Shown: piece by piece, positions 3,600-25,309 of the stretch
How the letters are laid out: every line of letters starts with the position of its first letter
How positions within the stretch are numbered: the first letter of the stretch is position 1
Source of the DNA: a virus
Virus record (IMG/VR): IMGVR_UViG_3300043827_000433
Span: 1-27,197 of that record
Reading direction: 5' to 3' (one strand)
DNA length: 27,197 nucleotides
Program-made: the position numbers and the translations under genes
Notes under the pieces: generated by a model
Databases searched by the model: none
What the model was told of the DNA's origin: nothing
Seen by the model: only the letters and a program-made list of their open reading frames with translations

Positions 3600-3608
3600 G
3601 TGTAATTT
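3600..3608 (+). promoter_or_regulatory. GTGTAATTT promoter motif
   Basis: GTGTAATTTAAATAA runs straight into ATG 3615 (15 nt); no Shine-Dalgarno sequence in between. Confidence 0.65.
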
Positions 3609-12786: not shown

Positions 12787-14817
12787 ATGAGGGTAAAAGG
12801 AACACATCAATTGGGTTATCATAATGGATTAACCCTAAATCGACTTGGAGATTTCCCAGAATTTAGAGCAAAAGAATTTTATAGTTATCCAAGGTATTAT
12901 TTCTTTGATTTTGGAGTTTCTAGCACTGCCACATTAGGAGCAGATGCAAATGGTAATTATTGGAATAATTTTTCTGGAAATGCTGGTGTTTTTAATATAA
13001 AAACAAGTAAAAATTTAAATGCAAATATAGATATTCTCTCTGAGGTGGGGTATAATTTTGGCGCAAATAATCTTGGTGGATTAGTAAATCCAAGCGGAAA
13101 TTTACTTGGGGATTTGGCAATAGCATCTGCGACTAGAGATTATTATTTTAATGCTAGTCCAACGAATATGGGTTTCAGGTTATATAAATTAGATTCTTCA
13201 AAATTATATGATTTTAGTTTTTTTGGATCTAGAAATACTTCTGCAGCAACTAGAGTAACAGCTTATATTGTTTCTGGTGGAAATATTATCTCTAGTGGAA
13301 ATTTAACGACTAGTGGCCCAAACGTAGGCACTGAAGGCTATAATGGTAATAATAACACAATCTTAAATATTTATAATATTCAACCAAGTAATAATCAAAT
13401 TTTATTTTATTTAAATACAATCAGTGGTGGATTCCAATATTTGAATGCCATGAAAATTACAGAAAAACTTAATACAAATTTAAACACACTAGGAATAGGC
13501 AGTAGCATTATGAACCGTTGGAATAATATAAGTTTAGATTTATCTCAGCCTGTATTAAATGTTGGGATTGAAGGATCAACTGTTAAACAGTGGTTACCAA
13601 ATGCAGCGCAAAATTATTGGAACACAAAAATAGTCACAAATCAGACATCGCCAGTTATGTTAGTTTATTTGGGAAGTAATGATATCTCGGACGGAGATGA
13701 TGCGGCAACAGTTTATAATAATACTATTTTATTTTTGAATGAACTTTTAAACCTTAATTCAAATATTCAAATTATTTATTTATCTGTAATTAGATCTCCA
13801 TCAAAACAAGCAGCGGGTAAAATATCTATAGTTAATAGTGTTAATACTCAAGTTCAATCTTGGATTTCTAATTTAGGAACAAGAATTTATTATGCAGATA
13901 TAAATACATATTTAGCAGACATAGATGGTAACCCGCTTGAAGCAGAACTATTTCTTAGTGATGGACGACATCTAACATCTCTAGGATATACTAAATTAAC
14001 TCAAGTTGTTAAACCATTATTAACAACTGTTTTATCCACAAATCCAATAGATGCTCAAGGTTATAAATTAGTTTGGATGGATGATTTTAATGGGACAGGC
14101 ATAAATACAAATTATTGGTCCCCAGTTGATAATTATGATGGAGCGAATGGAGAACTTCAATTCTACACAAGTAGAACAGGCGCCGCAGGTAATCTAAATG
14201 TTAGTGGCAGTAAATTATATTTAACAGCAAGAAGTGGTAGTTATACAGCTCAAGGCCCATGGATGCCAGCGCCAGCAACTACTCAATTTACTTCTGCGTT
14301 AATTGAAAGTTTAAATAAAAAAGAATTTCAATATGGGAAAATTCAAGCTAATATCAAGATGCCTAGCGGTTTAGGATTATGGCCAGCATTTTGGATGCTT
14401 GGTGATAATTATTTTACAGCAGGTTTTCCATTATGCGGAGAGATAGATATTATGGAACACGCGAATGTTCAACCAAACTATACTTCAGCTTTACATACAT
14501 TTAATCGTAATCATACAATTCCTGCTGGAGGATGGGCGCAAGGTAAAGAGTTGCCTTCAGATTATTATAATCAATTTTATACTTATGGAACAGAATGGAC
14601 ATCCACTGGAATAAGTTTTTATTTAAACAATACAGGATTTTTTACCGTGACCACTGGTCAAGCGGGTACAGGAGTACAAGATTGGCCATTTAATCAACCA
14701 TTCTGGCTTAAATTAAATCTTGCGGTTGGTGGTTCTTATGGGGGGAGTCCAAACGACGGTGATTGGACTATTCCTCATTCTATGGAAGTCGATTGGGTTA
14801 AAGTATATCAAAAATAA
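12787..14817 (+). CDS. Depolymerase: malectin-like domain + SGNH esterase + GH16 glucanase
   Basis: A 676-residue three-domain enzyme. Residues about 37-230 (YFFDFGVSSTATLGADANGNYWNN...LYDFSFFGSR) resemble the beta-sandwich that precedes SGNH hydrolases in Bacteroidota. Residues 235-415 are an SGNH/GDSL hydrolase: GIGSS (Ser239), GSND (296-299) and DGRH (Asp392, His395). Residues 420-676 are a glycoside hydrolase family 16 domain with GEIDIMEH (Glu552 nucleophile, Asp554, Glu557 acid/base) and WPAFWMLG upstream, as in laminarinases. The expected action is removal of ester (for example acetyl) groups and cleavage of a beta-1,3-type glucan or galactan. There is no signal peptide, so delivery on the virion, through the first 35 residues, is most likely. 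The exact substrate is not predictable from the sequence. Confidence 0.88.
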   Translation: MRVKGTHQLGYHNGLTLNRLGDFPEFRAKEFYSYPRYYFFDFGVSSTATLGADANGNYWNNFSGNAGVFNIKTSKNLNANIDILSEVGYNFGANNLGGLVNPSGNLLGDLAIASATRDYYFNASPTNMGFRLYKLDSSKLYDFSFFGSRNTSAATRVTAYIVSGGNIISSGNLTTSGPNVGTEGYNGNNNTILNIYNIQPSNNQILFYLNTISGGFQYLNAMKITEKLNTNLNTLGIGSSIMNRWNNISLDLSQPVLNVGIEGSTVKQWLPNAAQNYWNTKIVTNQTSPVMLVYLGSNDISDGDDAATVYNNTILFLNELLNLNSNIQIIYLSVIRSPSKQAAGKISIVNSVNTQVQSWISNLGTRIYYADINTYLADIDGNPLEAELFLSDGRHLTSLGYTKLTQVVKPLLTTVLSTNPIDAQGYKLVWMDDFNGTGINTNYWSPVDNYDGANGELQFYTSRTGAAGNLNVSGSKLYLTARSGSYTAQGPWMPAPATTQFTSALIESLNKKEFQYGKIQANIKMPSGLGLWPAFWMLGDNYFTAGFPLCGEIDIMEHANVQPNYTSALHTFNRNHTIPAGGWAQGKELPSDYYNQFYTYGTEWTSTGISFYLNNTGFFTVTTGQAGTGVQDWPFNQPFWLKLNLAVGGSYGGSPNDGDWTIPHSMEVDWVKVYQK

Positions 14818-16214: not shown

Positions 16215-16898
16215 ATGAAGTCTTCGAAAGTAACTTTTGAAAGTAAAATTTCGGAGATAAATCAAGAAATTAGTAAAAGAAGGCACAAATGGAGCCTTAC
16301 GACTCTTGCGTGGATGGATTTTAATGATGTTGCTCAAATATTGAGAATACATATTTATAAAAAATGGAGCATGTATAACCCCAAACAGCCCCTTGCTCCG
16401 TGGATAAATAGAATTGTTAGCAATCAAATCAAAAATCTTATAAGAAATAATTATGGAAATTACTCAAGACCATGCTTGAAATGTGCTGCGGCAGAAAACG
16501 AAGATGGATGTAATATTTATGTTACACAATGCAATAAATGTCCTTTATATGCAAAATGGGAAAAGAGTAAAAAATCTGCACATGATATTAAGCTCCCCGT
16601 AGCTTTAGAGAATCATACCCAAGAAGTTCATAATATTATTGAAGACGAAATTGATATAGAAAAGGCCGCCCAAAAAATTCACTTAAAAATGCGTCAAGTA
16701 TTGAAACCAATAGAATGGAAATTCTATGAACTTCATTATATACAACATAAATCAGAAGAAGATTCTGCGAAATATATGGGATACAAAACTAATGAAAAAA
16801 ATCGCAAGATAGGCTATAAACAAGTTAAGAATCTTAAAAAAGCAATCATGATAAAAGTAAAAAAATATCTTTATAATGGAGATATAGATTTGGGATAA
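16215..16898 (+). CDS. Phage sigma-factor-like protein with Cys cluster
   Basis: The 227-residue protein has a sigma region-2-like segment at about 28-80 (LTTLAWMDFNDVAQILRIHIYKKWSMYN...PLAPWINRIVSNQIKNLIRNNYGN). A cysteine-rich insert follows with Cys87, 90, 99, 106 and 109 (CLKC...C...CNKCPLYAKWEK), a likely metal site. The last part, about 150-218 (LKPIEWKFYELHYIQHKSEEDSAKYMG...YKQVKNLKKAIMIKVKK), resembles sigma region 4 with a helix-turn-helix. It should direct host RNA polymerase to phage promoters, and the repeated GTGTAAT motif is the obvious candidate target. It lies in the packaging operon, 3 bp after the zinc-ribbon gene. I am confident of the sigma-like fold; target assignment is inference. 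Confidence 0.75.
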   Translation: MKSSKVTFESKISEINQEISKRRHKWSLTTLAWMDFNDVAQILRIHIYKKWSMYNPKQPLAPWINRIVSNQIKNLIRNNYGNYSRPCLKCAAAENEDGCNIYVTQCNKCPLYAKWEKSKKSAHDIKLPVALENHTQEVHNIIEDEIDIEKAAQKIHLKMRQVLKPIEWKFYELHYIQHKSEEDSAKYMGYKTNEKNRKIGYKQVKNLKKAIMIKVKKYLYNGDIDLG

Positions 16899-22743: not shown

Positions 22744-22752
22744 GTGTAATAA
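22744..22752 (+). promoter_or_regulatory. GTGTAATAA promoter motif
   Basis: GTGTAATAATTTTAA precedes ATG 22759 (15 nt), after a 35-bp AT-rich gap. Confidence 0.6.
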
Positions 22753-22758
22753 TTTTAA

Positions 22759-23064
22759 ATGCGCACATTTAATGGCTTACAAATATTTACACAACAGCTA
22801 ACTAATTCTGGTCAATTAGATCAAAGATATGTCACGTTAAATACCGAGCAGCGTATAACTGGTAGAAAAATAATAGCTAATTCTTTAATTTATAATCCTA
22901 ATTATATTCCTTCTGGGGCAAATTCTCCAGGAGTGAGTGGCCAAATATCTTTTAATGGAAAATTTGATTATATGTTGATTTGTGTTAGTGGAGATGGTGT
23001 AAATGGTTTGTGGAGAGGAATACCATTGGTAAACAATTGGGAATTCCCTGCAGAAGGTAACTAA
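22759..23064 (+). CDS. Small tail or adhesin-like virion protein, 101 aa
   Basis: It begins MRTFNGLQIFTQQLTNSGQL and continues DQRYVTLNTEQRITGRKIIAN, a pattern of short trimeric-fibre-like repeats. The end, SGQISFNGKFDYMLICVSGDGVNGLWRGIPLVNNW, matches the small C-terminal fold that recurs in phage fibre and decoration proteins (G-x-I-[SA]-[YF]-x...W-x-R). The same pattern closes the 83-aa protein at 25029. It is directly followed by the 590-aa gene, 1 bp apart. Confidence 0.65.
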   Translation: MRTFNGLQIFTQQLTNSGQLDQRYVTLNTEQRITGRKIIANSLIYNPNYIPSGANSPGVSGQISFNGKFDYMLICVSGDGVNGLWRGIPLVNNWEFPAEGN

Positions 23065-23065
23065 A

Positions 23066-24838
23066 ATGTCAATTTATAATCGAGTTTTAACACTACAAAA
23101 AGTTCCACAAGGAGGTTTTGCGTACGTTAATGGTACACAAGGCATACCTTTGAATAGCGGTATGCAGTTCTATATTGACAGTGTTAATACTGGGTTTTTC
23201 CCTCCAATTTCACCCTTTTCAACTGATCCGAATAAATATAGAAAGCAGAAATGGTTAAGTATTGGTCTAGAAGGAAATTCATTTAGGCGATATATTAACG
23301 AAAATATACATTTAAATGGTATTCCCTCTGGTCTTGAGCCTGGACATTTTGTCTATTTTACAATCGAGCCAAAAAGCAGTCTTTTAGAACAAGGAGCAGG
23401 AACTCAAAATCCTAGAAATTTAAGATATATCTCCTCGCTAAGAGCAAAGCCATATATGGTTGTTCAAAACGACGCAAATAGAGACAATAGCTACGAAAAA
23501 ACACCCTCTAATTTATTTACTGGAGTATCTGGAAATAATAACTTTGTAAAATTTCATCCTCAAAGTAGATATAAAGATTTAGCGCTACAATCGCTCAGAT
23601 TCCATCCAGTAATTGGTAATGGCTATGCAAATTATGCTTTGCGAAGCGGGGTAGCTATAAGCATTCAACCTAAAAATCATCATCTTGAGACATTTATTGA
23701 AATTAATGTATTAAGTGGAAGCAGGGTAAATTACGGAAACCGCAGCAGAAATTTTATTAATAATCTTAATTTTAATTCCCTTGCGAGTGGACCAAGTTTA
23801 AAAGTAATTGGAGCTTCAGAAACTTTAGCAAATGGAATTTATGTAGCAAATACTTCCAACGCTCATTTTTACGTTAATGAAAATAATTATAGAATAATTA
23901 GTGGAAATAATAATGTTTGGACTTTACTTAAACCATCGTCTGGTATTGGTTATGAAGTCCCAGCGATGAGCTCATCTTTTAATTTAAATGCATACACACC
24001 TTTATATAGAACATCTGGATCAAATACTCATTTTCCTAATAGCCATAAAGAGCATTTATTAACAAAACAAGTTGAACATCCTTCTGTTGGATGGTTTAAA
24101 ATAAGTAATCCAAACGAAAATATAAATGTTTCTAGATTAGTTACACATGATTTAATAACATCGAGCCAGGGTAGAATAGGAGGTTTTGCTTATTCTGCTC
24201 AGACTAATCGTTTAGGTTACGTTTATCATGCATATAATAATTTTGGTGGTATTAATACAGCAACAGGCTCTTATCTAGAAGTTTCTGTAACAACTGGAGT
24301 AAACCGCGAATTTAGTTTTGATACTGAACCAAAGTTTATAAAAGTTAATTCTTCTGGAGTATATACGTATATTACTCCAAGGCTACCAGCTAACAGCAAC
24401 CAAACTTTTTCATATTTTGCTCCTAATTTTATATATGATAACCACGGATATAACTCATTTCCTGGAGATACAGTTGCAGATTATGTTTTAGGAGACGCAA
24501 TTTTATCAAAACAGAGAATTAATTTTAAAAAATCACTCTCACCTAATTTACATCAAGCTAAAAAAGTAAATTTAAAATTAAAATTTCAAAGAGATGATAA
24601 GGCTAAAAATGAAGAAATAAAAATTATTAAAAATATTTTTCCAGTTCAAGAAAAAGATTATATTGGATTCGAAAGAGTTGTAGAATTTTATGATGAAAAA
24701 GATAATGATACATACCTTTCGACCCCGTTTTTCTCATTAACAGGAAAAGATTATAGTTTTGAGCAAAAAGAATTATTTATCTATAGATCTAGACCAGACA
24801 TGAATAATTCTACATCGCAAAACGTAATAAAATGGTAA
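23066..24838 (+). CDS. Putative virion structural protein, 590 aa
   Basis: It has an AGAAGG Shine-Dalgarno sequence within the preceding gene and ATG 23066. The protein is beta-rich with many Ser, Asn, Gly and aromatic residues (for example FVYFTIEPKSSL, HHLETFIEINVLSGS) and few charges until a Lys-rich section near 490-530. No membrane segment or enzyme motif is visible. Size, composition and position between small fibre-like genes suggest a tail, baseplate or fibre component. I do not recognise a family. Its stop is followed after 3 bp by the ATGA of the left direct repeat of the RNA element. Confidence 0.65.
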   Translation: MSIYNRVLTLQKVPQGGFAYVNGTQGIPLNSGMQFYIDSVNTGFFPPISPFSTDPNKYRKQKWLSIGLEGNSFRRYINENIHLNGIPSGLEPGHFVYFTIEPKSSLLEQGAGTQNPRNLRYISSLRAKPYMVVQNDANRDNSYEKTPSNLFTGVSGNNNFVKFHPQSRYKDLALQSLRFHPVIGNGYANYALRSGVAISIQPKNHHLETFIEINVLSGSRVNYGNRSRNFINNLNFNSLASGPSLKVIGASETLANGIYVANTSNAHFYVNENNYRIISGNNNVWTLLKPSSGIGYEVPAMSSSFNLNAYTPLYRTSGSNTHFPNSHKEHLLTKQVEHPSVGWFKISNPNENINVSRLVTHDLITSSQGRIGGFAYSAQTNRLGYVYHAYNNFGGINTATGSYLEVSVTTGVNREFSFDTEPKFIKVNSSGVYTYITPRLPANSNQTFSYFAPNFIYDNHGYNSFPGDTVADYVLGDAILSKQRINFKKSLSPNLHQAKKVNLKLKFQRDDKAKNEEIKIIKNIFPVQEKDYIGFERVVEFYDEKDNDTYLSTPFFSLTGKDYSFEQKELFIYRSRPDMNNSTSQNVIKW

Positions 24839-24846
24839 AATATGAA
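24834..24846 (+). repeat. 13-bp direct repeat, left copy
   Basis: GGTAAAATATGAA, covering the stop codon of the 590-aa gene and an ATGA. Identical to 25021-25033, offset 187 bp. Confidence 0.65.
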
Positions 24847-24861
24847 ATTATTTTTATATAG

Positions 24862-25006
24862 CTCCAATAACGTGACCACTTCTGAGATGCCCCCGCATCT
24901 GAGAGGGAGTCTGGAGAGTCAAGCTAATTGCTTGAAAAGGCAAATAACACACTCATGTGATTTCCCTAAACCCTCCACAGGGTATGGGGGGGTCACGTTA
25001 TTGGAG
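24862..25006 (+). ncRNA. Multibranched structured RNA element (HEARO/OMEGA-like candidate)
   Basis: A perfect 16-bp outer helix joins 24862-24877 (CTCCAATAACGTGACC) and 24991-25006. Inside are four hairpins: P2 24879-24890/24895-24906 (11 bp, one G-G mismatch, CCCC loop); P3 24919-24924/24930-24935; P4 24939-24945/24960-24965 with a bulged C and an inner 3-bp extension; P5 24970-24974/24979-24983 (ACCCT/AGGGT). It is GC-richer than its surroundings and lies within a 187-bp unit between 13-bp direct repeats. An in-frame 67-codon ORF runs through it but looks non-protein-like. From memory, HEARO RNAs sit at ATGA/GTGA sites and belong to the IsrB/IscB OMEGA RNAs; here both flanks contain ATGA, but no nuclease is encoded. 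Confidence 0.75.
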
Positions 25007-25020
25007 GGAGTAGATAAAAA

Positions 25021-25033
25021 GGTAAAATATGAA
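25021..25033 (+). repeat. 13-bp direct repeat, right copy
   Basis: GGTAAAATATGAA; includes the ATG (25029) of the next gene and its AAAGG-type Shine-Dalgarno sequence. Confidence 0.65.
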
Positions 25034-25280
25034 CGAAAGAATTAATTTAAAATATTTAAATTTAGATAATAAACTTTTAAAAGTTGTAGGAAATGATTTA
25101 TATTTTAATGATCAAAAGATCAATGGCAATGGCAATGGCAATGGCAATGTCCTTTTGGTTCCCCCCCCAACAAGCCCAACGTCTAACGGCACGGATGGCG
25201 CTATAGCTTATGATTCTAACTATTTCTATGTATGTATTGCAACGAATAGATGGCTTAGAGTTGCGCTGGCCACATGGTAA
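25029..25280 (+). CDS. Short tail fibre/adhesin-like protein, 83 aa
   Basis: It begins MNERINLKYLNLDNKLLKVV, then a flexible (Asn-Gly)n repeat (residues about 32-40) encoded by AATGGC units, a proline-rich VLLVPPPTSPTS and the ending GTDGAIAYDSNYFYVCIATNRWLRVALATW. That ending is a familiar small C-terminal domain of phage structural proteins and is similar to the end of the protein at 22759. It starts in the right-hand direct repeat flanking the RNA element, so expression must pass through the RNA unless an unseen promoter exists. Confidence 0.7.
   Translation: MNERINLKYLNLDNKLLKVVGNDLYFNDQKINGNGNGNGNVLLVPPPTSPTSNGTDGAIAYDSNYFYVCIATNRWLRVALATW
25122..25149 (+). repeat. AATGGC hexanucleotide tandem repeat
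   Basis: About 4.7 units of AATGGC, in frame as Asn-Gly. Slippage would change the linker length without a frameshift. Confidence 0.8.
25161..25168 (+). repeat. C8 homopolymer
   Basis: Eight consecutive C in an AT-rich gene, coding for part of the Pro run. Slippage here would shift the frame and remove the conserved C-terminal domain. Confidence 0.7.
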
Positions 25281-25300: not shown

Positions 25301-25309
25301 GTGTAATCC
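25301..25309 (+). promoter_or_regulatory. GTGTAATCC promoter motif
   Basis: GTGTAATCC lies 28 nt before ATG 25329. The extra distance is taken up by a hairpin (AATCCT 25305-25310 with AGGATT 25316-25321, loop AATTA). Confidence 0.55.

Follow-up and report, generated by a model that had tools for sequence, protein, structure and literature searches.

The stretch of DNA analyzed here (the window) comprises positions 1 to 27,197 of the IMG/VR virus record IMGVR_UViG_3300043827_000433, read as one strand, and the parts of the g101-g83 locus described below lie on the plus strand. The gene g590 (23066-24838) encodes a 590-aa protein that belongs to no database family and is the only gene beside which the RNA described below was found. 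An AlphaFold model of this protein was unusable (mean pLDDT 37). The next gene, g83 (25029-25280), encodes a protein whose C-terminus matches the C-termini of phage tail proteins (phrog_17312). Within g83, a GGCAAT tandem repeat (25118-25147) forms a length-variable stretch that is shorter in L013, a contig which is the 99% identical twin of the window. Upstream of g590 lies g101 (22759-23064), the first gene of a module made up of g101, g590, the RNA and g83. A promoter-like GTGTAAT motif (22744-22752) precedes g101; the next copy is found at 25301, after g83, and there is none between g590 and g83. The presumed transcription unit would start at the motif at 22744 and run through g101, g590 and the element to g83.

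The GTGTAAT motif, often in the form GTGTAATAT, occurs on the plus strand of the window at 3600, 4583, 9488, 11789, 12766, 20768, 22744, 25301 and 26559, preceding ORF starts by 12 to 28 nt. The window and 79 related loci together contain 397 copies, of which 279 (70%) are located at most 40 nt upstream of an ATG ORF, compared with a mean of 3% for shuffled 7-mers. Judging from this distribution, the motif is probably a family-wide phage promoter. A protein encoded at 16215-16898, with homologues in L013, L026, L028 and L033, gave a weak Sigma70_r2 match just under the Pfam cut-off and is a candidate factor for these promoters.

Homologues of the g101 N-terminus also precede other modules in the tail locus. 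In many loci selected by their TerL protein, portal and g402 flank a tail locus holding different modules, although many of these contigs are fragments. Each cassette between portal and g402 has a g101-like gene at its start and a g83-like C-terminal motif at its end, and the cassettes vary in number and order (window 22759-25280; L019, L049-L056, L062, L099, L116-L123). The place and orientation of the g101-g590-RNA-g83 module relative to portal and TerL differ among phages. The module thus behaves as one cassette of a modular tail locus, which is distinct from mobility of the RNA itself. Elsewhere, g402 was found to be tandemly duplicated (L021, 9636-11977; L014, 7203-9544), and the window encodes a 676-aa protein (12787-14817) with a GH16 glycosyl hydrolase domain and marginal GDSL-type lipase and weak phage tail matches, possibly a polysaccharide-degrading tail enzyme.

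A perfect 16-bp inverted repeat (24862-24877 with 24991-25006), hereafter P1, lies between g590 and g83. The RNA stretch has a GC content of 0.50, versus 0.31 for the whole window, and a predicted folding energy of -76.5 kcal/mol (z = -7.4), which was equalled by none of 200 shuffled sequences. The 13-bp sequence GGTAAAATATGAA is present exactly at 24834-24846 and 25021-25033. The inverted repeat, the GC-rich stretch and the direct repeat had been reported in a preliminary description of the locus and were all found as described there; the direct repeat proved to be part of a longer repeat of 20 nt with one mismatch (24827-24846 and 25014-25033).

Relatives were sought in IMG/VR. Searching with the g590 protein returned nine, then ten contigs, and a pattern built on the 3' side of P1 yielded two more distant ones, L028 and L033. 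A wider g590 profile gave 12 contigs in total, none beyond those already found. The comparison set consisted of 11 distinct sequences, all from IMG/VR: the window and contigs with a g590 protein 43-99% identical. A homologous RNA of about 145-155 nt was found at the same place in all 11. Indeed, every contig that extends to the end of g590 carries the RNA between g590 and g83. One contig (3300028569_002322) ends within the 5' strand of P1, and its sequence matches up to that point. A covariance model built from the 11 sequences, whose E-values are rough, detected exactly one copy per whole record; the palindrome also gave a weak echo on the antisense strand.

The RNA is tied to g590. A TerL relative is encoded by more than 500 contig stretches, a minority of which carry the element. 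Among 80 TerL-selected loci, it was present only where g590 was present, and L098 ends inside g590. The covariance model did not detect it in 73 loci of TerL relatives (1.03 Mb), all but one of which have no g590 match. Thus, in the IMG/VR contigs and TerL-relative loci searched, the RNA was never found without the g590 gene, nor was a g590 relative found in any named phage. Pattern searches returned further candidates that were not retained. The bacterial contig L016, from a P1 pattern search of a genome collection, scored 17-23 bits on both strands; it contains a long inverted repeat in a different context and was judged a chance or unrelated match. At fourteen loci matching a 17-nt 5' pattern, the rest of the element was absent, and these were classed by inspection as chance matches. 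A two-gap core pattern brought no new family member.

As modelled from thermodynamics and sequence comparison, the RNA is a compact four-way junction in which P1 closes three arms, P2 to P4. The 5' strand of P1 (CTCCAATAACGTGACC, 24862-24877) pairs with its 3' strand (GGTCACGTTATTGGAG, 24991-25006); the outer part of the helix covaries, and its core, UAACGUGA, is invariant in all 11 sequences. P2 (24879-24906) is a hairpin with an internal loop whose pairing is kept while its sequence varies freely. P3 (24907-24963) has an invariant base, AGUC/GAUU (24908-24911 with 24959-24962), which includes an invariant G-U pair. Above this base are a conserved 4x4 internal loop, a helix that reads GAGU/ACUC in the window and GAAU/AUUC in other sequences, and a variable apical hairpin. 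P4 (24964-24989) combines a C-rich/G-rich base with a variable apical hairpin and many compensatory changes. The four enclosed hairpins initially proposed are seen when the window sequence is folded alone, but the comparative structure retains three arms.

Covariation was assessed over the 11 sequences. RNAalifold returned 35 pairs, 11 of them with double changes. In a 42-pair structure, 18 pairs showed double changes with pairing kept, a count flattered in the distal P2 and P4 helices, which were taken from per-sequence folds before counting; the fixed-column counts in P1, the P3 base and the P4 base are independent of that choice. In this structure 89.8% of cells were paired, versus 43-50% when partners were slid by one to three columns. 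None of 500 shuffles reached any of its covariation measures, in a control that ignores the relatedness of the sequences. The close pair L028/L033 displayed five double compensatory changes and no broken pair. Folding energies were also low throughout: z ranged from -4.8 to -8.6 for the whole element and from -2.1 to -4.9 for its interior alone. When 14,477 segments of 160 nt from the window and 79 related-phage loci were scanned, no structural outlier for its GC content was stronger than the L094 element, and the L048 element ranked fourth. The multibranched structured RNA initially proposed is therefore genuine, since homologues carry the compensatory changes whose absence would have spoken against it.

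Three observations point to an RNA of the plus strand: the P3 base has an invariant G-U pair, the P4 base has U-G cells with no matching A-C, and in 10 of the 11 sequences it is the sense strand that folds better. Neither the window region nor ten homologous loci matched any of the 4227 models of Rfam 15 at E-values up to 10. The RNA thus apparently belongs to an undescribed family, absent from Rfam 15.

The preliminary description had interpreted this region as the insertion of a mobile structured RNA, non-autonomous or domesticated and perhaps related to HEARO. The corresponding explanation is a non-autonomous mobile element, HEARO/OMEGA-like or MITE-like, with a 13-bp target duplication. 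The window alone is compatible with such an event, with its perfect terminal inverted repeat, its 13-bp flanking direct repeat and an ATGA within this repeat. However, the RNA sits at the same place in every relative, even where protein identity falls to 43%, with a single copy per record. A comparison with phages lacking the insert had been proposed, but every homologue that reaches the site carries the RNA, and no empty g590-g83 junction was found among the homologues. The two copies of the direct repeat are restricted to the window and its 99% twin; in the other homologues, the longest word shared by the flanks is 6-8 nt. Given this confinement and the lack of any empty site among the homologues, the repeat is not the scar of an insertion. 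Kinship with HEARO fares no better. Like this RNA, HEARO RNA (RF02033) and the omega RNAs of IscB and IsrB are highly structured, and ATGA adjoins the element in this one phage. HEARO/omega RNA sits just upstream of a RuvC/HNH (IscB) ORF (PMC9755519). In contrast, the phage RNA is followed by the 83-aa tail-like g83 and not by a RuvC/HNH nuclease gene, it is not mobile, and neither the window nor its relatives matched RF02033 at E-values up to 10. A RuvC/HNH ORF was not seen nearby either, in agreement with the absence of a nuclease ORF noted earlier. A mobile element is thus extremely improbable: the RNA is inherited with its neighbouring genes, and is neither an insertion nor a HEARO RNA.

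An ORF of 67 codons (24842-25045) bridges the two genes through the RNA. Its equivalent is open in all 11 sequences, with lengths of 56 to 67 codons. In every sequence, the frame set by an ATG close to the stop of g590 stays open over the whole stretch between the first conserved motif and the end of the conserved 3' block GTTA, and the other two frames contain stops in all of them. In L027 and L032, the ORF stops at a TAG just inside the 3' strand of P1. The geometry of its ends is tight: in all 11 sequences, the ORF starts between -4 and +8 nt from the g590 stop and stops between -18 and +14 nt from the g83 ATG. When the interiors were shuffled, the probability of an open frame was 0.09-0.27 per sequence with phases kept and 0.045-0.18 with phases randomised. 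Over roughly seven lineages, which are not fully independent, the open frame is not due to chance. This argument rests on the shuffle test and not on a control with chimeras between homologues, because the frame is open in 52% of chimeras.

Coding through 24842-25045 had been set against an RNA element in the preliminary description. The frame is indeed open in 11 of 11 sequences, and one close pair, L028/L033, differs by codon position in a 4:4:17 ratio (P = 4e-4). However, other in-phase comparisons of homologues showed no third-position bias, and the peptide, which has no Pfam hit, is not conserved overall across the 11 sequences. The reason is that the frame in which the motif AGTC-AGAGA and the 3' block are read changes from phage to phage, so that the conserved RNA motifs read as SLES or VKRI, and as GVTLLEG, GSRY or GGHVI. 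As compensatory changes accompany the open frame, the RNA element is not refuted, and the stretch carries two layers, an RNA fold and an open frame. A programmed frameshift or g590-ORF fusion was dropped since the frame of the ORF relative to g590 differs among phages. Splicing or bypass was also dropped, as there is no consistent frame with g83.

Altogether, we favor the following interpretation, with a probability of about 0.5: the RNA would represent a new family of structured mRNA elements, conserved and acting in cis in a tail-gene operon of an uncultured phage family, translated through and tuning the expression of g83 relative to g590. Translation of the short ORF would probably begin through reinitiation at the stop codon of g590. 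Ribosomes would then read through the folded element by way of the ORF and be delivered to the g83 start codon, which would couple translation of g83 to that of the ORF. How much g83 product is made relative to g590 would depend on the balance between the folded RNA and the ribosomes that travel through it, the fold being either regulated or regulating. A cis-acting element is supported by the lack of a promoter motif between the two genes, and by the upstream frame that crosses the structure and stops near the g83 start in all 11 sequences. The effect on the downstream gene suggested previously is plausible as a cis effect. Predictions of start-site accessibility are mixed. In the window, the g83 start region (-18 to +6) is already predicted to be 0.78 unpaired, and masking the 5' strand of P1 is predicted to raise accessibility clearly in only some homologues and to lower it in L029. 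Simple sequestration of the g83 start is therefore not uniformly predicted. A strong Shine-Dalgarno match is missing from most of the phage's genes. This observation and the invariant 8-bp core of P1, which is more than simple coupling would need, count against a coupling interpretation.

The junction could also adopt an alternative pairing (24955-24998), which is a prediction only. AUGUGAUU (24955-24962) is able to pair with GGUCACGU (24991-24998), so that P4 is extended and the inner P1 and lower P3 are lost; 24874-24876 could then pair with 24909-24911. In all 11 sequences, the alternative fold is predicted to be less stable than the native fold, by 2.4-13 kcal/mol. When the 5' strand of P1 was masked as if covered by a ribosome, an extended P4 was predicted in 9 of the 11 (by inspection). 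Dual pairing of this kind occurs in about 0.1% of random junctions, counted for one register, and the hypothesis was formed after seeing the sequence. These positions barely vary, so they offer no covariation for it; most of the P1 stretch that is invariant falls within the branch-migration zone. Such a bistable four-way junction, in which inner P1 and lower P3 would be exchanged for P2/P4 extensions by branch migration, may act as a translation-triggered RNA switch driven by a ribosome on the bridging ORF. We regard this switch as unlikely.

The translated cis-acting element we favor can be compared with several known systems. Attenuators and arrest peptides rely on translated leader ORFs. 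There, as here, a short ORF overlaps a structured RNA upstream of a gene; the phage ORF differs in lying between cistrons, crossing the whole structure and encoding a peptide that is not conserved. In coupling by RNA unfolding (f1 genes VII/IX, MS2 coat/lysis, E. coli rpmI/rplT; reviewed in PMC12548453), a structure also lies between neighbouring genes, as in the phage examples, and the upstream frame crosses it and stops near the next start. For f1 VII/IX, moving the upstream stop codon before the hairpin abolished coupling (PMC12548453). What sets the present element apart from those systems is its size of about 150 nt, its conserved four-way junction and a bridging ORF dedicated to it; its coupling is proposed. 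Finally, candidate structured RNAs from comparative genomics (PMC2864571, PMC8040213) are of the same kind, conserved and covarying with no known function, except that the phage RNA is new by its absence from Rfam 15 and not by comparison with candidate lists.

Other explanations would keep the RNA and change its role. The element might be a processing or stability device, P1 and the junction serving as the target of an endonuclease, for example RNase III, or as a block to exonucleases, which would give the g590 and g83 messages different lifetimes. In line with this role, the junction is compact, is closed by a 16-bp helix and sits between two genes of the same operon, and start-site accessibility does not change consistently. 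However, little sequence conservation is required of stabilising hairpins or of the sites recognised by RNase III, and the invariant P1 core and P3 loop therefore argue against processing; the selected open frame through the RNA is also left unexplained. We consider this explanation possible, if rather improbable. The region might instead be a small-protein gene with an incidentally structured mRNA, the peptide being the product that matters. Its frame is open in all 11 sequences with gene-like spacing at both ends, and L028/L033 display the third-position bias mentioned above. Nevertheless, the other pairs lack this bias, the reading frame of the conserved RNA motifs differs among phages, there is no Pfam hit, and a peptide does not need such extensive compensatory changes, making this quite unlikely.

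Conversely, the RNA might act once released from the message, as a ribozyme, a decoy or a processed small RNA. Its invariant nucleotides cluster in the P3 internal loop, the P3 base and the P1 core, as in RNAs with tertiary sites. Yet Rfam, ribozymes included, gave no match at E-values up to 10, the RNA is always tied to g590/g83, and the open frame would be unexplained; a catalytic or trans-acting role thus seems decidedly improbable. It is very improbable that the inverted repeat acts at the DNA level, as a protein-binding or packaging site. The invariant half-sites TAACGTGA and TCACGTTA are in inverted orientation, as expected for such a site, but the interior arms covary, and the wobble pairs and sense-strand folding described above indicate a plus-strand RNA.

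This work contributes an RNA family that Rfam 15 lacks, from a widespread group of uncultured phages. What is unusual about the element is that the same bases, lying between two genes of the tail region, preserve both a covarying RNA fold and an open reading frame. If either the switch or the coupling interpretation is true, the phage would set the ratio of two virion proteins by means of a large translated RNA junction, with no protein regulator.
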